Of a stretch of 34,070 nucleotides of DNA, positions 2,661 to 32,687 are shown in pieces (within the stretch, counting starts at the first letter, position 1; each line of letters begins with the position of its first letter). The stretch covers positions 1 to 34,070 of IMG/VR virus record IMGVR_UViG_3300021085_000112; one strand, given 5' to 3'. The position numbers and the translations under genes were made by a program. The notes beneath the pieces were generated by a model. The model saw only the letters and a program-made list of their open reading frames with translations. It was not told the DNA's origin and ran no database searches. Source of the DNA: a virus.

Positions 2661-3055
2661 TGAAAAAACTAAAAGGAGTTGACGGAAAACTTGACATCGC
2701 TTGGAGTAAATTGGTCAAATTACGTGCTGGAAACAAATGCGAATATTGTGGCAAAACAAGTTATCTTAATTCACATCATATTTACTCTAGAAGTAAAAGG
2801 AGCGTCCGTTGGGACGTAAAAAACGGAATTTGCTTATGCGTTGGACATCATACTTTTAGCAGTACATTTTCGGCACACAAAACGCCATTGGAGTTTGTTA
2901 AATGGCTCGAAAAATACAAAGGAACTGATTATATAGATAATCTTACTTTAAAAGCAAATAGTATAAGTAAATTGCATAAATTTGAAAAAGAGGAATTACT
3001 AAAACATTTAAACAATCAAATAATTAAATATGAACAAGACATTAATAAATCTTAA
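2660..3055 (+). CDS. HNH-type nuclease, NinG-like zinc fold
   Basis: 131 residues. C27-x2-C30, the H39-H40 pair, N55, then C58-x-C60 and H63-H64 form a zinc-stabilised beta-beta-alpha metal site of the HNH superfamily; the arrangement with a following SRSKRSVRWD basic loop recalls phage NinG-type and other small HNH proteins. Expected to nick or cut DNA, possibly at branched recombination intermediates. The C-terminal 45 residues are a basic helix. It overlaps the next gene by 26 bases, implying coupled translation. An HNH gene beside the terminase would suggest packaging; this one is in the replication operon instead. Confidence 0.75.
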   Translation: MKKLKGVDGKLDIAWSKLVKLRAGNKCEYCGKTSYLNSHHIYSRSKRSVRWDVKNGICLCVGHHTFSSTFSAHKTPLEFVKWLEKYKGTDYIDNLTLKANSISKLHKFEKEELLKHLNNQIIKYEQDINKS

Positions 3056-3593
3056 AAACCATTTAGACCAAGAGGCTGGAGTTGATATTTCAACGAGGAG
3101 CAGACATAGACCAATAGTTTTATTTAGAGTATTATTTTATAAATTGGCTTTAGATCTAACAAGCGAAAGCACAATAAAAATTGCTAAAGTTGTTGACCGA
3201 GACCATTCAACTATTATACATTCAAGAAATAATACTTTTGAATATATGATGAGTTTGGAGAGATACAGAAATTTATATAAAAAATATATGGCTCTATACA
3301 ATACGGAAGTTATAGACTTTACAGACGAGGAGAGCATTGAAATTCAAAGATTGACAAACCAATTAAATAAGCAATTAGATAATGTCGCTAAACTTGAAAG
3401 AATTGTTGATACTATGGCTGGAGGCTTAACTAAAAACGAGAAAGAATATAGAACATTAACCAAAGAGCAACAAATGGACTATGACGAAAGAGCTGGATTG
3501 TTTTTAAAAAGCCTTAAATGGAAAAAACAAAATCAAAAGGGAGAAGTTATTAATTGTGGCAATAATGTTACAGACGCAAGAGGTGTATTATGA
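3030..3593 (+). CDS. DnaA domain IV-like DNA-binding protein
   Basis: 187 residues. Residues 20-67 read like the C-terminal DNA-binding domain of DnaA: the basic loop STRSRHRPIVLFRVLFYKLA, a helix-turn-helix (TIKIAKVV) and the signature DRDHSTIIHS at 56-65, matching the DnaA 'GRDHTTVLHA'. The AAA+ and other DnaA domains are absent. The rest is charged helix, partly coiled coil. In DnaA this domain binds TTATCCACA boxes, so a role at the phage origin or in transcriptional control is likely. ATG lies inside the HNH gene's 3' end, and its stop overlaps the next start. Confidence 0.8.
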   Translation: MNKTLINLKNHLDQEAGVDISTRSRHRPIVLFRVLFYKLALDLTSESTIKIAKVVDRDHSTIIHSRNNTFEYMMSLERYRNLYKKYMALYNTEVIDFTDEESIEIQRLTNQLNKQLDNVAKLERIVDTMAGGLTKNEKEYRTLTKEQQMDYDERAGLFLKSLKWKKQNQKGEVINCGNNVTDARGVL

Positions 3594-4444
3594 TAACAGT
3601 TAACAGTATCAGTGGAGGAAAAACCTCTGCGTATTTAATGAAACACTATCCAGCTAACATAAATATATTTTCTTTGGTTAGGGTTGAAGACAAGGACAAC
3701 CTTTGGTTAAAAGGTAAAGACGAAAAAACAAGACAATTAGTGTCTGATAAAATAGGCAAAGAATTTATTGGAACTGTTGAAATGGACGAGATAATTTATA
3801 CAATTTTAGATTTAGAACAACATACTGGACAAAGCGTTAATTGGGTTGCTGGAGAAACATTTGAAAAAGTTATAAAAAATCATAGAAATTACCTACCAAA
3901 CAAAATGGCAAGGTTTTGCACGACTGATATGAAAATTATACCAATATTTAATTTCTTAAAAAAAAATACAGAATTGCCAGTAAAAATGAGAATAGGTTTA
4001 AGACCAACGGAAAAAAACAGAATGGCTAATATATTAGAACGTTCTGATAAAAATGGTTTAGAACACTTTAAAACAATAATAGGCAAATCTAAAAATGGCA
4101 AAAGGAATAAGTGGGGAGAAATACCTTATAGATATGTTGAATTTCCCTTAATAGAAGATAACATAAAAAAAGATACAATCTATAATTATTGGGATAAACA
4201 AAATGTTAGGTTTGCTTATAGAAATAATTGTGTCGGTTGTGTTAATAGAAACCCATTATTTTTGTCACATATAGCACAAAAAGATAAAGAAAGTTTTAAT
4301 TGGTTTATTAAGCAAGAGAAAAAGACTGGAAAAAGATTTAATTCAGAAGTTAGCTATAAAGACATTTTAAAATTTGGAGTACAAAACCAATTATTTAATG
4401 ATAATGATTTTAACGAATGCGATAGTGGTTATTGTGGAATATAA
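3590..4444 (+). CDS. PP-loop ATPase of the PAPS reductase / DndC-like superfamily
   Basis: 284 residues. Residues 6-13 (SISGGKTS) form the PP-loop that binds ATP in PAPS reductases, ATP sulfurylases, DndC and N-type ATP pyrophosphatases. An RFCTTDMK block at 108-115, conserved in the PAPS reductase group, and four more cysteines (C214, C217, C277, C282) could hold an iron-sulfur cluster. Family members activate sulfate, sulfur or a base carbonyl by adenylation. No CysD/CysN or Dnd partner is present, so sulfate assimilation and phosphorothioation are unlikely in isolation. Its next large neighbour is a DNA methyltransferase, so a nucleic-acid modification role is possible. Confidence 0.7.
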   Translation: MITVNSISGGKTSAYLMKHYPANINIFSLVRVEDKDNLWLKGKDEKTRQLVSDKIGKEFIGTVEMDEIIYTILDLEQHTGQSVNWVAGETFEKVIKNHRNYLPNKMARFCTTDMKIIPIFNFLKKNTELPVKMRIGLRPTEKNRMANILERSDKNGLEHFKTIIGKSKNGKRNKWGEIPYRYVEFPLIEDNIKKDTIYNYWDKQNVRFAYRNNCVGCVNRNPLFLSHIAQKDKESFNWFIKQEKKTGKRFNSEVSYKDILKFGVQNQLFNDNDFNECDSGYCGI

Positions 4445-4600: not shown

Positions 4601-5254
4601 ATGAATGTACTTGAACTTTTTGCTGGTAGCAGAAGTATTGGAAATGAATGCGATAAATTAAATTATAATGTTTTTTCTTCTGATATTAATGCATTTGATA
4701 AAATTGACTATGTTACTGATATTAATAGCTTTGACGTTTTAAAAGTGCCTTTTACTCCAGATATAATTTGGGCTTCTCCTCCTTGTACTTATTTTTCGGT
4801 TGCAAGTATTGGTAAACATTGGTATAAAAACCATACTCCAAAATCAGATAACGCATTGAAAGGAGTTAAATATGTAAACTCAACTTTAAAAATTATAAAT
4901 TATTTTTTAAACATAAATTCAAATTTATTTTTTTATATTGAAAATCCAAGAGGTAAATTGAGAAAATTAGATGTTGTAAAAGGTATTCCAAGAACTACTG
5001 TTTGGTATTGTAAATACGGAGATACAAGAGCAAAACCAACTGACATTTGGAGTAATAATATTTATAATCCTTTGTTTAATCCTAAAGGCTGGAAACCAAG
5101 ATCTAAATGTTTTAATGGCAATATTAAATGTCATCACGAAGACGCACCAAGAGGAGCAAGAACTGGGACACAAGGTTTAAAAGATAATTACAATAGGTCA
5201 AAAATACCTTATTTACTTTGCAAAGAAATTTTAACAAACAAAACAAATGAATGA
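4601..5254 (+). CDS. Compact DNA (cytosine-5) methyltransferase
   Basis: 217 residues, much shorter than typical C5 methyltransferases (over 300). Motif I for S-adenosylmethionine is LELFAGSRSIG (4-14); motif IV with the catalytic cysteine is ASPPCTYFS (58-66, C62); motif VI is IENPRG (113-118); YGDTRAKPTDIWSN (139-152) replaces the QxRxR region; SKIPYLLCKEI (200-210) is the motif X equivalent. The target-recognition region is minimal. It transfers a methyl group to C5 of cytosine in DNA. Start follows AAACAAAACAAATG. In the replication operon it could protect phage DNA, and it could supply 5-methylcytosine to the TET-like oxygenase at 11200-12084. Confidence 0.82.
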   Translation: MNVLELFAGSRSIGNECDKLNYNVFSSDINAFDKIDYVTDINSFDVLKVPFTPDIIWASPPCTYFSVASIGKHWYKNHTPKSDNALKGVKYVNSTLKIINYFLNINSNLFFYIENPRGKLRKLDVVKGIPRTTVWYCKYGDTRAKPTDIWSNNIYNPLFNPKGWKPRSKCFNGNIKCHHEDAPRGARTGTQGLKDNYNRSKIPYLLCKEILTNKTNE

Positions 5255-10518: not shown

Positions 10519-10642
10519 AAATTATACAACTAAACAAAGGTTATCTGTATTGGAGACAGTAGTCTCAAAACTATATGTTAAGATTACAGAAATGGACGAA
10601 GAATTAAAACAATGCAAAAATGAAAAAACAGACAAAGGTTAA
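10508..10642 (+). CDS. Small coiled-coil protein, 44 aa
   Basis: Starts inside the end of the preceding gene and runs 23 bases into the ParB-like gene. The LSVLETVVSKLYVKITEMDEELKQ stretch has heptad spacing of hydrophobic residues typical of a short coiled coil. The double overlap with neighbours supports translation. Function unknown. Confidence 0.5.
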   Translation: MKAKNYTTKQRLSVLETVVSKLYVKITEMDEELKQCKNEKTDKG

Positions 10643-11216
10643 AATTAATGAAATTAAAAGCAATGAGTTAAATCCTCGTTGGATAAAAGACTCTAAATTT
10701 GAAAAACTTGTTAAATCAATTAAGGAGTTTCCAGAAATGTTAGAGTTAAGACCAATAGTTGTAGATGAAAATATGACGATACTTGGTGGTAATATGCGAT
10801 ACAAGGCTTGTGTTGAGGCTGGACTTAAAGAAATACCAATAATTATAGCAAATAAATTAAGCGAAACTCAAAAGAAAGAGTTTATAATAAAAGACAATAT
10901 TGGTTTTGGAGAATGGGATTGGGATATACTTTCAAATGAATGGAATGTTGATGAATTAAATAATTGGAGCTTAGATGTTCCAAAATGGGAAGATGTCTCG
11001 TTTAATACTGAAATAGAAGATACTGGAGAATATGATTACCCAGAAGATAAAATTATACAGTCCCACGTTAAAATGGTACAATTATTTTTAAATACAGAAA
11101 CAGAGCCGAATTTTAGAAAGTGGGAAGAACATTTAAGAAAGATTGTAGGAACTTATAATTTAACAGACACTATATATAAAAGTATAGAAAAATTATATAA
11201 TGAAACCCAAGATTAA
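10620..11216 (+). CDS. ParB/Srx-like domain protein (DNA modification cassette)
   Basis: 198 residues. The N-terminal 95 residues carry the ParB fold: SNELNPRWI, LRPIVVDENMTILGGNMRYKA (the ParB GGN-R box) and a following IPIIIA strand. Then comes FIIKDNIGFGEWDWDIL, the acidic tryptophan segment common in phage ParB-like proteins next to DNA methylases. This superfamily includes CTP-binding and nuclease members. Neighbours on the 3' side are the TET-like, aGPT-Pplase-like, FAD and kinase genes, and ParB-like proteins recur in such clusters. A chaperone or targeting role on DNA is inferred. No partition ParA is present, so plasmid-like segregation is unlikely. Confidence 0.75.
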   Translation: MKKQTKVKINEIKSNELNPRWIKDSKFEKLVKSIKEFPEMLELRPIVVDENMTILGGNMRYKACVEAGLKEIPIIIANKLSETQKKEFIIKDNIGFGEWDWDILSNEWNVDELNNWSLDVPKWEDVSFNTEIEDTGEYDYPEDKIIQSHVKMVQLFLNTETEPNFRKWEEHLRKIVGTYNLTDTIYKSIEKLYNETQD

Positions 11217-12084
11217 AGAACATTATATATCTCCTAAATTAACAGAGGAACAAGCCAAAAAACTTGCTGGAACTTTATTAGAGGAAAAAGATTTTAATTT
11301 ATTAGTTACTTACGATGCTGATATTTATTGTGACGAAACAAAAAAATGTATTGCTAAATTTCGCAAAAAAGTTATACCAGCAAAAATTGTTAAAAACGCA
11401 TACGAAAATTTAAAAGGTGCGTCTGGAATTTCTTTAAACAGAAATCTTGGCTCTGGGAAAAAAATAAAACCTTACATTAAAGCAAACGGAAGACTAAGTA
11501 ATACAACATACTCAAATCCAGTAAATAGTGGTATAATAGGATATTTTGACAGAAACCCAAGATTTCCGTATTGTAGACAAACTGCATTTAATGAAAAACA
11601 ATTTGCCAAGTTTAAAAAAGCCTATCCAATAATTAATTTTGTTGACAAGGCTTATGCAAAGCTAATGCCAGAACATTATAAATTACAAAGAGAGGTGGCT
11701 GACAAAACCTCTAAAGATTTTGTTATTACAAATACTGCGTTTACAACTGTTACAGTTAATAGTAATTGGCAAACGGCAGTACATACTGACGCTGGAGATT
11801 TTGAAAATGGTTTTGGTAATTTAGTTGCTTTAAGAAATGGGAGATATACTGGAGGTTATTTTGTTGTTCCAAAGTGGGGAGTTGCTTTTGATTTACAACA
11901 ATGCGATTTGCTTTTGGTAGACGTTCATCAATGGCACGGAAACACACCTATAAATTTAATTGACGAAGATGCTAAAAGAATAAGCCTTGTAATGTATTAT
12001 CGTAAAAATATGATAAGTTGCGGAACTGCAAGAGAAGAAATCGAAATTGCGAAAAATAGAAAAATAGGAACAAAGCTTAACTAA
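11200..12084 (+). CDS. TET/JBP-family Fe(II)/2-oxoglutarate DNA base dioxygenase
   Basis: 294 residues. The C-terminal double-stranded beta-helix holds H195-T-D197 (in TAVHTDAGD) and H246 (in HQWHGN) for iron and R260 (KRISLVMYY) for 2-oxoglutarate. TVTVNSNWQ just before the HxD, GRYTGGYFV and DLLLVDVHQWHGN are typical of the TET/JBP group. Family members oxidise the 5-methyl of 5-methylcytosine or thymine in DNA; phage TETs tested so far act on 5-methylcytosine. The N-terminal 170 residues are probably a DNA-contacting extension. Overlaps the ParB-like gene by 17 bases and lies one base before the aGPT-Pplase-like gene, so the cassette is co-translated. Substrate is inferred from the phage's own C5 methyltransferase. 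Confidence 0.88.
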   Translation: MKPKIKEHYISPKLTEEQAKKLAGTLLEEKDFNLLVTYDADIYCDETKKCIAKFRKKVIPAKIVKNAYENLKGASGISLNRNLGSGKKIKPYIKANGRLSNTTYSNPVNSGIIGYFDRNPRFPYCRQTAFNEKQFAKFKKAYPIINFVDKAYAKLMPEHYKLQREVADKTSKDFVITNTAFTTVTVNSNWQTAVHTDAGDFENGFGNLVALRNGRYTGGYFVVPKWGVAFDLQQCDLLLVDVHQWHGNTPINLIDEDAKRISLVMYYRKNMISCGTAREEIEIAKNRKIGTKLN

Positions 12085-12085
12085 T

Positions 12086-12808
12086 ATGAATTTAAGTTTT
12101 AGAGAATTTTCAAAACAAATTATTGAGTCTGGAGACATAGACCCAGATTACATATTAATTAGAGAAAAATGTGAGGAGTTAGGTTGGAATAAAAAACAGA
12201 TGTTTAATTGGTTTTTACACAAACTGGTTATATATGATAGTTACTCTGAATTACAAGTTATAACAAAACAGAAAAAAATTGAGAATGTTAAGTACGGAAC
12301 AGAAAGAAGAAAGTCAAAACGTTTTGCTACTGAATATTTAAACAATATAAAAAAAGCATTTGCGTTTACTGATATTGATAAGTTTTTTAGCAGAGAGGGA
12401 AAAGTTGTGTTTAATCAAATAAAAACAATTAAAGGGTTTGGATCTTGGGCGAGTTGGAAGTTTATGGATTTAATTAGTTGTTGTTATGGAATAGATGTTG
12501 ATTTTGATAGTATTGATTTTAGACAAGCATATACTTTTCCGTTAAAAGGTTTGCTAATGATAAACGACTATCCAGAAGATGTAAAAATCCTAAACGATAC
12601 AAAGTTATATAATAAATTAATTTATAACGCTTATGATATGCTCAACGGATTGGAAAATTTAAAATCTCCACATAATAATAATAAAGGTTTAAGAATAAAC
12701 GAAGTTGAAACTCTATTATGTAAATATCATTCTTATAAACATAATAAATATAAAGTTGGACAAGATATAATTCATTTATCTAAAAGAGGTAAAGAATGTA
12801 TAATATAG
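12086..12808 (+). CDS. Alpha-glutamyl/putrescinyl thymine pyrophosphorylase-like base-modifying enzyme
   Basis: 240 residues. RRKSKRFATEYL (74-85), a helix-hairpin-helix-like block IKTIKGFGSWASWKFMDLI (112-130) and the C-terminal VETLLCKYHSYKHNKYKVG (207-225) match my recollection of the DNA-glycosylase-fold aGPT-Pplase family first described in base-hypermodification clusters. Characterised relatives displace a (pyro)phosphate from a phosphorylated 5-hydroxymethyl base with an amino acid or amine, making a C-N bond. Placed between the TET-like gene and the FAD and kinase genes, it should use the phosphorylated hydroxymethyl base. Could alternatively be a true glycosylase, but the C-terminal ET-LC-Y block argues against it. 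Confidence 0.75.
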   Translation: MNLSFREFSKQIIESGDIDPDYILIREKCEELGWNKKQMFNWFLHKLVIYDSYSELQVITKQKKIENVKYGTERRKSKRFATEYLNNIKKAFAFTDIDKFFSREGKVVFNQIKTIKGFGSWASWKFMDLISCCYGIDVDFDSIDFRQAYTFPLKGLLMINDYPEDVKILNDTKLYNKLIYNAYDMLNGLENLKSPHNNNKGLRINEVETLLCKYHSYKHNKYKVGQDIIHLSKRGKECII

Positions 12809-13584
12809 TTGGAGCTGGATTGTGTGGAAGTATGTTAGCCAAAGAGTTTGATAACATCGGAATTGAATATAGAATATTTGATGCAAAATTACCTTTCTCT
12901 GCATCAATTATATCAGAAAATTTGTTTAGTGATACTTGGCTAAAAGATGTTTCATATATAAAGCAATCGTTAGACTTTATTCATAATAATTATCAAGTAG
13001 AAAAAAGAACATTTATAGGATCTAAAATAACAAAAGAATTATATCATTTACCTATTCCAAATGTTTTAAGGTTTGATTACATAAACGAGAAAGTTATTGA
13101 GGCTACAAAAGAGGGAGTTTTAACAACGAATGGTTTTTATAAAGGAGTTAATATAATATGTGCTGGTTTTCTTGCTAAAAAGCTATTTAAACTCCCTTAT
13201 TTAGACGCATTAACTGGACACGGATTTTTTATTAAACATAAAAAGATTGATGATTATATAAATACTTATAGACCATATACTCACGAAAAAATAATGAATT
13301 GGCACGATAAAACAATTTGGTATGGAGACAGTACGGCAATAAGACACAATAATTATATGAAAAAACGTAAAGAATACGTACAAGCCAGTTTGAAAAGATT
13401 AAAAGGACACGGACTTGAATATAATAAAATAGTATTCGGAGCAAGACCAATGAACACTAAAGATAAAAAAAATGGTCTATTAGTTAAAATTAATGAAAAC
13501 AACATTATAATTAATGGAGGTTGGAAAGACGGACTTGTTATTTATCCATATCTTATAAAAAAATTACATAAATGGCTAAAATAA
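12796..13584 (+). CDS. FAD-dependent oxidoreductase (DAO/glycine oxidase-like) of the modification cassette
   Basis: 262 residues. VGAGLCGSM (5-13) is the GxGxxG dinucleotide-binding loop at the very N-terminus, followed by the second strand YRIFDAK. IICAGF mid-protein and GARPMN with NGGWKDG near the C-terminus are the conserved FAD-contact blocks of amine oxidases of the DAO group; the sequence is short for the family, suggesting a minimal substrate domain. It probably oxidises or cleaves the amino acid attached to the base, for example leaving an aminomethyl group. Overlaps the preceding gene by 13 bases and the kinase by 13. Substrate is inference from neighbours. Confidence 0.78.
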   Translation: MYNIVGAGLCGSMLAKEFDNIGIEYRIFDAKLPFSASIISENLFSDTWLKDVSYIKQSLDFIHNNYQVEKRTFIGSKITKELYHLPIPNVLRFDYINEKVIEATKEGVLTTNGFYKGVNIICAGFLAKKLFKLPYLDALTGHGFFIKHKKIDDYINTYRPYTHEKIMNWHDKTIWYGDSTAIRHNNYMKKRKEYVQASLKRLKGHGLEYNKIVFGARPMNTKDKKNGLLVKINENNIIINGGWKDGLVIYPYLIKKLHKWLK

Positions 13585-14093
13585 TTGCACTTGGAGGAGT
13601 ACCAGCAACTGGAAAAACTACTATGATGCGAGAAATCATAAAAAACTATTTACCTTTAAAAACTTTTAAGTATAAATTGGTCAGAGGTCTATATAACAAT
13701 AAATCTAATATTTATATTATAGGAATATACGACAACTCTTTATTTAGTGGAACAGATAAATTAAGTATGGCAGTACAACCAGACTTTTTAGAACTCGTAA
13801 ATAAGATTTCAGATGCTACATTTATATTTGAGGGAGATAGATTATTTAATAGTAGTTTATTTAGTAAAGTTGATTGCGATATATTTGTTTTAAAAGTAGA
13901 TGAAGATATTATTGAAAAAAGGCATATTGATAGGAAAGATAACCAGACAGAAAAATTTAAAAAATCTAAACAAACAAAGATCCAAAACATAATTGAAAAA
14001 CATAAGCCTATAATCTTAAATAATAACAATAAAAAAGAAAGTCAAAAGAATTTAGAATTAATATTAAACACCATAAAAAATGAACAAAACTGA
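13572..14093 (+). CDS. P-loop kinase, candidate hydroxymethyl-base DNA kinase
   Basis: 173 residues. GGVPATGKTTMMRE (8-21) is a Walker A of the nucleotide/polynucleotide kinase type, FIFEGDRLF holds an acidic Walker B-like residue, and RHIDRKDNQTEKF resembles an arginine-bearing lid. The size fits the 5-hydroxymethyluracil DNA kinases of thymidine-hypermodifying phages, which phosphorylate the base hydroxyl inside DNA as the step before aGPT-Pplase. Overlap with the FAD gene and the small terminase (14 bases) ties modification to packaging. A generic nucleotide kinase is the alternative, less likely because of the cassette context. Confidence 0.75.
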   Translation: MAKIIALGGVPATGKTTMMREIIKNYLPLKTFKYKLVRGLYNNKSNIYIIGIYDNSLFSGTDKLSMAVQPDFLELVNKISDATFIFEGDRLFNSSLFSKVDCDIFVLKVDEDIIEKRHIDRKDNQTEKFKKSKQTKIQNIIEKHKPIILNNNNKKESQKNLELILNTIKNEQN

Positions 14094-14439
14094 ACAACAT
14101 AAAAAAGCAGTTATTGATGCGTTGGAAAAATCATTAGGAGTTGTAACAACGGCTTGTAAAAATGCTGGAGTAGGCAGAACTCAATTTTATACTTGGTTGA
14201 AAGAAGACGAGGAGTTTTCAAAGCAAGTTAAAGAGATTGGAAATGTAGCTTTAGACTTTGCAGAGAGCCAATTACATAAACAGATAAAAGACGGCAGTAC
14301 AAGTGCAACAATATTCTATTTAAAAACCAAAGGAAAGAAACGAGGCTATATTGAGAAAATAGAAGTTGACCAAGAAACAAAAATGGAAGTTAGTGGGTTT
14401 AATATAAAAGACTTAATCAAGTTTGATACAACTGAATGA
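14080..14439 (+). CDS. Terminase small subunit
   Basis: 119 residues. The N-terminal helix-turn-helix (GVVTTACKNAGVGRTQFYTWL) followed by a long helix (FAESQLHKQIKDGSTSATIFYLKTKG) is the usual small terminase layout, where the HTH binds the pac or cos region and the rest oligomerises. Directly upstream of and overlapping the large subunit by 17 bases. Starts 14 bases inside the kinase gene. Confidence 0.82.
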   Translation: MNKTEQHKKAVIDALEKSLGVVTTACKNAGVGRTQFYTWLKEDEEFSKQVKEIGNVALDFAESQLHKQIKDGSTSATIFYLKTKGKKRGYIEKIEVDQETKMEVSGFNIKDLIKFDTTE

Positions 14440-15628
14440 TAAATTTAAACCTTTATTTAAAAACGATACAAGGTTTTTTATAGTTACTGGAGGGCGAGGA
14501 GCAACAAAATCATTTTCGGTCAACACTTTTATTGCTTTATTAAGCCTTGAGAAAAGCCATAAGGTGCTATTTACGAGACAAACACTATCTTCAGCACACG
14601 TCAGCATTATTCCAGAATTTAAAGAGAAAATAGAGCTATTAAATTTGCAATCTGTTTTTGATATTAACAGAACAACAATACAAAACAAAGCGTCTGGAAG
14701 TGAAATTATATTTAAAGGCTTAAAGACATCTTCTGGAGATCAAACGGCATCGCTTAAATCTTTGCAAGGAATAACAACTTGGATATTAGACGAGGCAGAA
14801 GAAATGATTGACGAAAAACTATTTGATAAAATAAACTTATCATTAAGAACAAAGGGAACACAAAACAGAGTTATTTTAATACTCAATCCAGCTACAAAAG
14901 AACATTGGATATATAAACGATTTTTTGAAGATGCTGGAGTCCAAGCTGGTTGGAATGGTCAAAAAAATAATGTCACTTATATTCACACTACTTATTTAGA
15001 TAATATAAAACATTTAGACCAATCTTTTTTAGATGAGGTTGAAAGAATGAAAACAAAAAACCCTAGCAAATATGAGCATATAATAAACGGCTCTTGGTTA
15101 GAAAAAGCAGAGGGCGTTGTTTTCACGAATTGGGAATATGGAGAGTTTAATCCTAAAGGAATACAAACTATATTTGGTCAAGATTACGGCTTTAGTATAG
15201 ATCCAACTACGCTTATTGAAGTGGCTATTGATAAAAGAGATAAAATAATTTGGGTAAAAGAGCATTTATATAAAGCAAAACTAACTACAAGCCAGATAGC
15301 AGAAATAAATAAATCTTGTGCTGGTAATAGTTTAATCATTGGAGATAGTGCCGAGCCAAGACTTATTCAAGAGTTAAATAATCAAGGCAATAATGTAATG
15401 GGAGCAATGAAAGGTCAAGGCTCAATATCGTTAGGAATTAGTTTGCTATTGGATTATAAATTAATCGTTGAGGTTAACAGTACAAATATTGCAAAAGAGT
15501 TAAACAACTTTACTTATGCAGACAAAAAAAGTAAATTATTTGTAGATGATTTTAACCATACAATCGATCCGTTGCGATACGTTGCCTCTTATGTTTTAGG
15601 TAATCAATTCGGAATAGAAATAAGATAA
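14423..15628 (+). CDS. Terminase large subunit
   Basis: 401 residues. Packaging ATPase: Walker A GGRGATKS (23-30), Walker B TWILDEAEEM (119-128; D123, E124). RNase H-like nuclease domain with acidic residues D254 (FGQDYGF), D308 (IIGDSAEP) and D382 (TIDPLRY). Matches the Terminase_3 type. An in-frame stop at 14414 and the absence of any ATG before the Walker A leave TTG 14423 as the best start, inside the small subunit gene, giving low-level coupled expression. The headful or cohesive mode cannot be decided here, but the circular map fits headful packaging. Confidence 0.92.
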   Translation: MIQLNDKFKPLFKNDTRFFIVTGGRGATKSFSVNTFIALLSLEKSHKVLFTRQTLSSAHVSIIPEFKEKIELLNLQSVFDINRTTIQNKASGSEIIFKGLKTSSGDQTASLKSLQGITTWILDEAEEMIDEKLFDKINLSLRTKGTQNRVILILNPATKEHWIYKRFFEDAGVQAGWNGQKNNVTYIHTTYLDNIKHLDQSFLDEVERMKTKNPSKYEHIINGSWLEKAEGVVFTNWEYGEFNPKGIQTIFGQDYGFSIDPTTLIEVAIDKRDKIIWVKEHLYKAKLTTSQIAEINKSCAGNSLIIGDSAEPRLIQELNNQGNNVMGAMKGQGSISLGISLLLDYKLIVEVNSTNIAKELNNFTYADKKSKLFVDDFNHTIDPLRYVASYVLGNQFGIEIR

Positions 15629-31166: not shown

Positions 31167-32687
31167 ATGAATTTTATAAATTCTTATAGATACGTTCAGC
31201 CAGTTGTTGCTGGTGGATTTGAAACACGTTGGACAACTACAAGTGTAAATGAAGTAATTGAATTACCTTATAAGTCTAATGGTACATATACTGGCACGAT
31301 TGATTGGGGAGACGGAAGTGTTCCAGTCGCAAATACTTACGCAAATAGGTCACACACTTACTCAACGGCTGGAGATTATAATATTATAATTGACGGAGAA
31401 TGCTCCCATTTCGACACTCAATCAAATACTACATCTAGAGCCAAGTTAAAAGAAGTTTTAGGCTTTGGAACTTATACTTTTTCCACTTTAAGAATGCGAG
31501 ATTGTCAAAATCTTATAGGTGGACCAAATTGTAGAGATACGCCAATTATAAATAGTGGAGACTCTGGTTTTATGTTCTATAATAATACGAATATGATTAC
31601 TTTCCAGCATATAGAAGATTGGGATTGGACAAACATTCCAAATCCTTTTTGGGCGTTTATGAATTGTCAGCAATTTGTAGGCGATTTATCTAATTGGGAT
31701 ATGAGTAATTGTTTAAACATTTCCTATATGTTTTATAATTGTTACGCTTTAAATTTTGATGCGAGTGGTTGGGATTTGTCAAATTGTACTAGAGTAAATC
31801 AAATGTTTTCTGGTATGATTTTGAATTTTAATAGTGACGCTCCATTTGATTTAACAAGCGTAACTAATAGTGCTTATTCTCTTTTTTATAATTCTCAACA
31901 GTTTAACGGAGATTTAACGGGAATGGACACAAGTACACTAACAAGAATGGACAATTTTCTAGCTAGAACAAGTTTTAATAATTCTAGTATTAATACTTTA
32001 GATGTAAGCAGTAATCAAAATTTTCAAAATTGCTTTGGCGACATTCACACCGTAAGTGGAGTATCATTTAATCAAGACTTAACAAATTGGAATACGTCTA
32101 GTGCAACAAATATGTCAATAATGTTTAAAAGCAATACTGATTTTAATGGAGACATAACTGGCTTTAATACTGGACTTGTTACAACTATGAAACAAATGTT
32201 TACTAGTTGTTCAACTTTTAATCGAGATATTTCTAGCTGGAATGTTTCAAATGTCGCTGATTTTGACCAAATGTTTTATATCGCAAGTGCCTTTAATCAA
32301 AATATAAGCAGTTGGAATACTTCTAGTGCAACAAATATGTATCGAATGTTTTATAATGCTGACGCTTTTGACCAGCCAATTGGAAGTTGGGACGTTGGAA
32401 ACGTTACTAATATGGAGGGAATGTTTCAAAATACTGACAATTTTGACCAAGATTTAAGCAATTGGGATTTATCTTCAATTACTAATATGGCAAATTTTAT
32501 GGCACAAAGAACACACTTGCAATTTAGCTCAACAAATTATGACAACTTATTAGAGGCTTGTGTAAACGGAGGTCAATTAAATGTAACTTTAGGAATGGGA
32601 ACAATAAAATATTCAGTAAGTGGACAATCCAGAAGAAATACATTAGTATCAAGAGGCTGGACAATAACAGACGGAGGATTAGTATAA
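31167..32687 (+). CDS. Receptor-binding or adhesin-like protein with PKD and BspA/DUF285 repeats
   Basis: 506 residues. An N-terminal PKD-type domain (TIDWGDGSVPV at 44-54, RSHTYSTAGDYNI at 61-73) is followed by about nine repeats of roughly 25 residues with the form 'FN-D-S-WD-S-VTNM--MF', for example DLSNWDMSNCLNISYMFYN and SSWNTSSATNMYRMFYNA. This is the BspA-like leucine-rich repeat or DUF285 family, known from bacterial surface adhesins. A tail fibre or receptor-binding role is inferred from its location after fibre-like and connector genes. The repeat region of some 330 residues may vary by recombination. Confidence 0.8.
   Translation: MNFINSYRYVQPVVAGGFETRWTTTSVNEVIELPYKSNGTYTGTIDWGDGSVPVANTYANRSHTYSTAGDYNIIIDGECSHFDTQSNTTSRAKLKEVLGFGTYTFSTLRMRDCQNLIGGPNCRDTPIINSGDSGFMFYNNTNMITFQHIEDWDWTNIPNPFWAFMNCQQFVGDLSNWDMSNCLNISYMFYNCYALNFDASGWDLSNCTRVNQMFSGMILNFNSDAPFDLTSVTNSAYSLFYNSQQFNGDLTGMDTSTLTRMDNFLARTSFNNSSINTLDVSSNQNFQNCFGDIHTVSGVSFNQDLTNWNTSSATNMSIMFKSNTDFNGDITGFNTGLVTTMKQMFTSCSTFNRDISSWNVSNVADFDQMFYIASAFNQNISSWNTSSATNMYRMFYNADAFDQPIGSWDVGNVTNMEGMFQNTDNFDQDLSNWDLSSITNMANFMAQRTHLQFSSTNYDNLLEACVNGGQLNVTLGMGTIKYSVSGQSRRNTLVSRGWTITDGGLV

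Follow-up and report, generated by a model that had tools for sequence, protein, structure and literature searches.

How could a small phage hypermodify its DNA if its genome holds no enzyme for making the hydroxymethylated nucleotide with which known pathways begin? The question is raised by four adjoining genes at positions 11200–14093 of a small marine phage genome, IMG/VR record IMGVR_UViG_3300021085_000112, positions 1–34,070, all of which was analyzed and is here called the window; a 131-bp overlap between its two ends (99% identity) marks the genome as essentially complete. At a probability that we put at roughly 0.6, the four genes encode a post-replicative DNA hypermodification pathway in which oxidation by a TET enzyme, phosphorylation, glycine transfer and flavin-dependent cleavage would yield a 5-aminomethyl pyrimidine, most likely on thymine. 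The genes are as follows.

11200–12084, plus strand: TET/JBP dioxygenase dependent on 2-oxoglutarate (2OG) and Fe(II) (Pfam Tet_JBP, PF12851, 4.2e-29, above cut-off)
12086–12808, plus strand: ADDT/aGPT-PPlase-type transferase, probably a glycinyltransferase (PF18724, 3.4e-9, above cut-off)
12796–13584, plus strand: flavin adenine dinucleotide (FAD) enzyme related to the N-alpha-glycinylthymidine FAD-dependent lyase gp47/NGTO (profile of relatives)
13572–14093, plus strand: P-loop kinase, proposed as a 5-hydroxymethyl-pyrimidine DNA kinase (Walker A GGVPATGKTT)

Four genes and their solved relatives

The original prediction described these genes as overlapping or abutting in one run, and this is confirmed: all four open reading frames are intact, lie on the same strand and are spaced by 1 bp or overlap by about 13 bp. 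The nonsynonymous substitution rate is well below the synonymous rate in each, indicating purifying selection. The first gene had been read as a TET/JBP oxygenase from H195-x-D197, H246 and R260, and the reading holds, as the product carries the Tet_JBP domain and these residues, the HxD...H iron ligands and the 2OG-binding arginine, are invariant in 24 aligned homologs. The enzyme would make a 5-hydroxymethyl pyrimidine in DNA. Similarly, the second product, predicted to be aGPT-PPlase-like, belongs to that family both by its domain and by family-wide conserved residues, with D19-P20 and E208-T209-x-L211-C212 invariant with the proteins of YuA and MW2, and profile searches place it there and not in an unrelated family. 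A single-sequence phmmer search of the PDB retrieved an ADDT structure (25qc, 8e-12) and Glycinyltransferase 8z2m (3e-7), and the protein probably exchanges a phosphate on the 5-methylene for glycine.

The FAD enzyme, predicted as DAO-type, scores weakly in Pfam when searched alone, but a profile built only from its relatives matches the PDB entries titled "Flavin-dependent lyase", 8z2o at 2.1e-6 and 8z79 at 8.5e-6; the match to 8z2o spans profile positions 4–249 of 262, so that the homology to gp47/NGTO is nearly full length. A fold search with an AlphaFold model placed 8z79/8z2o, titled N-alpha-glycinylthymidine FAD-dependent lyase gp47/NGTO, at the top (2e-7), with a template modelling score of about 0.35. 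Because the model is poor (predicted local distance difference test 51), the sequence profile is the main evidence for lyase likeness; reading the enzyme from its model was abandoned, and the fold match is kept only as agreement with the profile. The enzyme is predicted to turn the glycinyl group into aminomethyl. The kinase, too, scores weakly in Pfam alone and falls below the cut-off for Ploopntkinase3 (PF18751), a family matched by 19 of its 21 relatives (best 2.7e-5), and its family profile aligned in hhalign with the kinase of Microbacterium phage MO526 at 7e-11, with a common GTDxLSMAVxP motif. These searches relate the protein to kinases beside phage TETs and not to an unrelated family, in keeping with its earlier assignment.

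From these relationships we infer each chemical step, the base and the biological role; the genes, their families and order, their co-inheritance, the module swaps and the lack of a hydroxymethylase are observations. The TET would act on a pyrimidine within existing DNA, thymine being the likeliest, and hydroxylate its 5-methyl group; the kinase would phosphorylate the resulting 5-hydroxymethyl group; the ADDT would displace the phosphate with glycine; and the lyase would cleave the glycinyl adduct to a 5-aminomethyl pyrimidine, which would be 5-aminomethyl-deoxyuridine (5-aminomethyl-dU) if the target is T. The homologs imply the order that had been proposed, from TET through kinase and aminotransfer to flavin trimming, and narrow it to glycine as donor and a 5-aminomethyl product. 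Wen and colleagues are said to have described, in 2024, a phage route to 5-aminomethyl-dU formed by glycinyltransferase 8z2m and the FAD lyase gp47/NGTO (8z79/8z2o); the glycine route is supported here because both middle enzymes resemble solved enzymes of that one route.

Exchange of the middle genes and linkage to the terminase

Scans of IMG/VR yielded about 46 distinct related contigs, in which the gene order recurs with a varying middle, far beyond chance. The run is gapless from ParB to TerS, and its flanking features are these.

10620–11216, plus strand: ParB-N domain protein (Pfam ParB_N, 1.3e-9), overlapping the TET gene
14080–14439, plus strand: TerS, the small terminase, travelling with the cassette (phrog_4044, 2e-8)
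14423–15150, plus strand: N-terminal part of TerL, at the right edge of the exchanged block, divergent in a cassette-less sister genome

ParB, TET, kinase and TerS are constant wherever the contig is long enough. ParB adjoins TET in nearly every relative and in actinophages, and this constant upstream partner may have a DNA-binding or targeting role. The middle consists of ADDT and FAD genes in 14 contigs and the window, of glutaminase, GNAT and second ADDT genes in 20 (plus two that are cut), of glutaminase and second ADDT genes in four, and of ADDT alone in three; these types are never mixed within a contig. In one more record (L054) the TET is followed by a glycosyltransferase in place of the middle modules. 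The exchange is seen in contig L055, whose DNA is 96% identical to the window on both flanks, yet carries between them (L055:486–2342) a class-II glutaminase, a GNAT acetyltransferase and a second ADDT in place of ADDT and FAD. Pfam identifies the proteins of this second module as GATase_7 (1.5e-8), GNAT (1e-6) and ADDT (2.7e-20). The identity of the second ADDT of L055 rests on the Pfam score, since phmmer against the PDB gave only spurious matches to designed SAKe proteins. On well-supported branches, the TET tree requires at least three module changes and the kinase tree at least four.

That the swaps leave TET and kinase constant supports the proposed pathway. The L055 module points to a route through ammonia and to acetylation of the product: in such relatives the glutaminase and second ADDT would use ammonia to reach what is presumably the same aminomethyl stage, mostly followed by acetylation. 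Glycine and ammonia as alternatives gain support from the tRNA wobble uridine enzymes, among which MnmEG takes ammonium or glycine as nitrogen source, the two converging on 5-aminomethyl, and MnmC(o) trims cmnm5 to nm5 with FAD (PMC3936742). Those enzymes differ in acting on RNA and in drawing their carbon from methylene-tetrahydrofolate, and we offer an analogy, not a claim of homology.

The extent of the exchanged unit is given by a cassette-less sister genome (G021, IMGVR_UViG_3300021197_000572, 30.6 kb), whose ends overlap by 154 bp at 94% and which matches the window at about 86–95% identity along the greater part of its length. There, window positions 10608–14458 are replaced by 343 bp encoding a different, 88-amino-acid TerS-like protein with only C-terminal similarity to the window TerS, and the two TerL proteins are 50–78% identical up to about residue 250 and 96–100% thereafter. 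In 28 contigs, moreover, TerL is only 25–32% identical to that of the window and TerS 42–79%. The replacement, the TerL breakpoint and the contrast in identity together define the unit as the stretch from ParB through TerS with the N-terminal part of TerL. The TerS that accompanies the cassette may need to match modified DNA. The coordinates of the exchanged TerS and TerL N-terminus are 14080–15150 in the window and L171:4122–5590.

The base and the product

In the known phage route, 5-hydroxymethyl-deoxyuridine (5-hmdU) is made at the nucleotide level by a dUMP hydroxymethylase. Hidden Markov model (HMM) searches of the window and of 19 related contigs found no thymidylate-synthase-type hydroxymethylase (PF00303), with the known thymidine modifiers YuA and Bordetella MW2 as positive controls. 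The reported lack of a dUMP/dCMP hydroxymethylase is thereby confirmed for PF00303-type enzymes in an essentially complete genome, and the enzyme that marks thymidine hypermodification from 5-hmdU is missing. With TET as the only hydroxymethyl candidate, a pathway acting on finished DNA, as first proposed, is supported, and the TET would stand in for the hydroxymethylase. The window also contains a gene that the original prediction did not mention.

4601–5254, plus strand: small C5-type DNA methyltransferase (phrog_757, 3e-27; PPC and ENP motifs)

This enzyme was considered as a source of 5-methylcytosine (5mC) and is not linked to the cassette. Were it, or a host enzyme, to supply 5mC, the TET would make 5-hydroxymethylcytosine, which the kinase, the ADDT and the FAD lyase would carry on to 5-aminomethylcytosine, a base then confined to methylated sites. 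We regard this cytosine route as unlikely, although a serious alternative, to which the methyltransferases of the window and of a second cassette genome (G017; motifs SPPC and ENV) lend support. Of the ten cassette records that reach 27 kb, these are the only two with such an enzyme, and the HMM detected none in two genomes with overlapping ends (G005 and G012). HMM results were used because a regular-expression motif search had overlooked the G017 enzyme. The window methyltransferase family, for its part, comes with a TET in none of 18 larger records, of which 14 reach 27 kb, with a TET or kinase at none of 80 homolog loci, and is kept at 96% identity by the cassette-less sister. Among 15 TET-bearing cultured phages a C5-methyltransferase was likewise not detected in 14; the exception, Melnitz-3, where an HhaI-like methylase adjoins the TET, speaks for cytosine. 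The co-occurrence expected of TET-dependent cytosine hypermodification is thus present in the window and not across its relatives. The TET-associated glycosyltransferase PF20691 (TAGT) is absent from the window, G005, G012 and G017, and characterized ADDT, FAD-lyase and 5-hydroxymethyl kinase enzymes act on uracil derivatives. Thymine is favored as the target, though not proven, because the cassette does not track the methyltransferase and thymine is the methyl pyrimidine that is always present.

Genome dinucleotide odds gave no clear signature. In the TET, D200 and R268 align to N1387 and H1904 of TET2, suggestive of a different base pocket; the difference is not decisive, because D stands at the first of these positions in the methyltransferase-linked TET of Melnitz as well.

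Several observations weigh against a thymine-directed aminomethylation pathway. Phage TETs studied so far reportedly oxidize 5mC (work of Burke and colleagues in 2021, a study cited in PMC12730594), and the window does encode a C5-methyltransferase; HMM searches, moreover, can miss divergent methyltransferases elsewhere, and 5mC could come from the host. A TET 57% identical to that of the window stands with a TET-associated glycosyltransferase in L054. The kinase has no direct match to the 5-hmdU DNA kinase family (HMUDK, PF18748), which is not among the families listed for it or its relatives, and the FAD enzyme is a distant relative of the solved lyase, with a poor model.

A different end product is rather improbable in our estimation. 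The ADDT could add another amino acid or an amine, or the FAD enzyme could oxidize without cleavage, giving an aminoacyl-methyl or other base; donors in the wider family do vary (alpha-glutamyl, putrescinyl, glycinyl), the solved enzymes are matched at low identity, and three contigs (L046–L048) have ADDT without FAD. The best solved relatives of ADDT and FAD are, however, both glycine-route enzymes, and FAD, present in 14 contigs and the window, is never found apart from the first ADDT type, as expected of a consecutive enzyme pair. That the genes form no modification pathway, being unrelated genes held together by packaging or regulation, or acting on RNA, would fit the joint exchange of TerS and the TerL N-terminus but is very improbable given strong purifying selection and the recurrence of DNA base hypermodification families in one order across unrelated phages.

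Relation to known systems and meaning

The preferred aminomethylation pathway has its closest biochemical counterpart in the phage 5-aminomethyl-dU pathway, where homologous ADDT and FAD lyase genes are adjacent, accompanied by a kinase, and a 5-aminomethyl base is likewise expected. It differs in starting from nucleotide-level 5-hmdU, whereas the sole hydroxymethyl candidate of the window is the TET, so that the downstream half agrees by sequence and the start does not. PMC11946847 cites Wen et al. (2024) as reference 27 for this pathway.

Similar gene orders occur in cultured actinobacteriophages. Microbacterium phage MO526 (OR941552) has TET, ADDT (2e-23), DAO-type FAD enzyme (1e-11), Ploopntkinase3 (2e-18) and terminase in the order of the window, which supports the pathway; the sequences are remote (in its relative Margaery the TET is about 25% identical), the host is actinobacterial, and we found no description of this cassette in the literature searched. 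Rhodococcus phage Tonitrus and Gordonia phage CloverMinnie share with the window an uninterrupted series of ParB, TET, ADDT/aGPT-PPlase and kinase genes close to the terminase; the five-gene cluster of Tonitrus has been described in print as one for thymidine hypermodification (PMC11955845). There, unlike in the window, the last gene follows the kinase and encodes a Rossmann-type protein, and no module swaps are described. Our FAD profile gave no significant match to the flavin or Rossmann proteins of MO526 and Tonitrus, which are therefore placed by family and position only. Caulobacter phage Cr30 (L017:7410–16303) has a TET, an ADDT (1e-52), a related kinase and a weak TAGT match, with a thymidylate-synthase-type gene elsewhere in its genome, and may make a mixed modification.

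The clusters of TET, C5-methyltransferase and glycosyltransferase (TAGT) described by Burke et al. (2021) resemble the window in setting a TET beside ParB and a decorating enzyme, and differ in that the window lacks TAGT, its methyltransferase is unlinked and decoration would proceed by nitrogen chemistry. In the wider TET family, a flavobacterial contig from a Winogradskyella metagenome-assembled genome (L173) has a TET 41% identical to that of the window, a ParB fragment and a TET-associated glycosyltransferase, which hints at hosts, and Pelagibacter phage HTVC112P (L013:6973–9195) has ParB, TET and then a FkbM-type methyltransferase, perhaps for O-methylation of a hydroxymethyl base.

Iyer and colleagues reportedly predicted TET-generated hydroxymethyl pyrimidines as starting points in 2013. 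With that prediction, a published Tonitrus cluster and relatives in MO526, CloverMinnie and Cr30, the kind of system is already known, and the window is less novel than the original prediction implied, as this type had already been noted in an actinobacteriophage in culture (PMC11955845). The literature searched did not describe the glycine/FAD version that this phage group carries, its exchange with the glutaminase module or the linkage to TerS; the last of these and the interchangeable nitrogen module appear to be new.

The phage itself is, as predicted, consistent with a Bacteroidota host, the nearest relatives of its TerL being those of Nonlabens phage P12024L (59%) and then of Riemerella phages. 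Elsewhere in the window, a PAPS-reductase-like gene (3590–4444, phrog_424) has no counterpart in the sister genome, where the sequences on either side do match, and may form another exchangeable island. A protein with a DnaA C-terminal DNA-binding domain (3030–3593, Bac_DnaA_C 4e-8), encoded directly before the replication genes, is a possible phage origin binder, and a 506-amino-acid protein after the tail genes (31167–32687), with repeated units of the type SSWNxSxxTNMxxMF resembling surface-protein repeats, is perhaps receptor-binding.

We know of no JBP-like thymine hydroxylation in the DNA of phages. It is nevertheless conceivable, at somewhat less than even odds, that a phage TET hydroxylates thymine in finished DNA and so starts a modular 5-aminomethyl-dU pathway with interchangeable nitrogen cassettes (glycine with FAD lyase, or glutaminase-derived ammonia with a second ADDT and optional acetylation), co-inherited with a matching TerS such that packaging may discriminate modified DNA. 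If the proposed pathway is correct, small phages without nucleotide-pool enzymes of their own would hypermodify DNA by acting on finished strands, and the modified base would probably shield it from host nucleases. Their enzymes would equip a methyl pyrimidine of duplex DNA with a reactive amine, of use in the labelling and sequencing of T or 5mC, and the exchange of modules in nature singles out the decorating step between otherwise near-identical phages. As MO526, CloverMinnie, Tonitrus and Cr30 are in culture, the choice between T and 5mC is answerable by one nucleoside measurement, and the TerS linkage makes a coupling of base modification to packaging testable.

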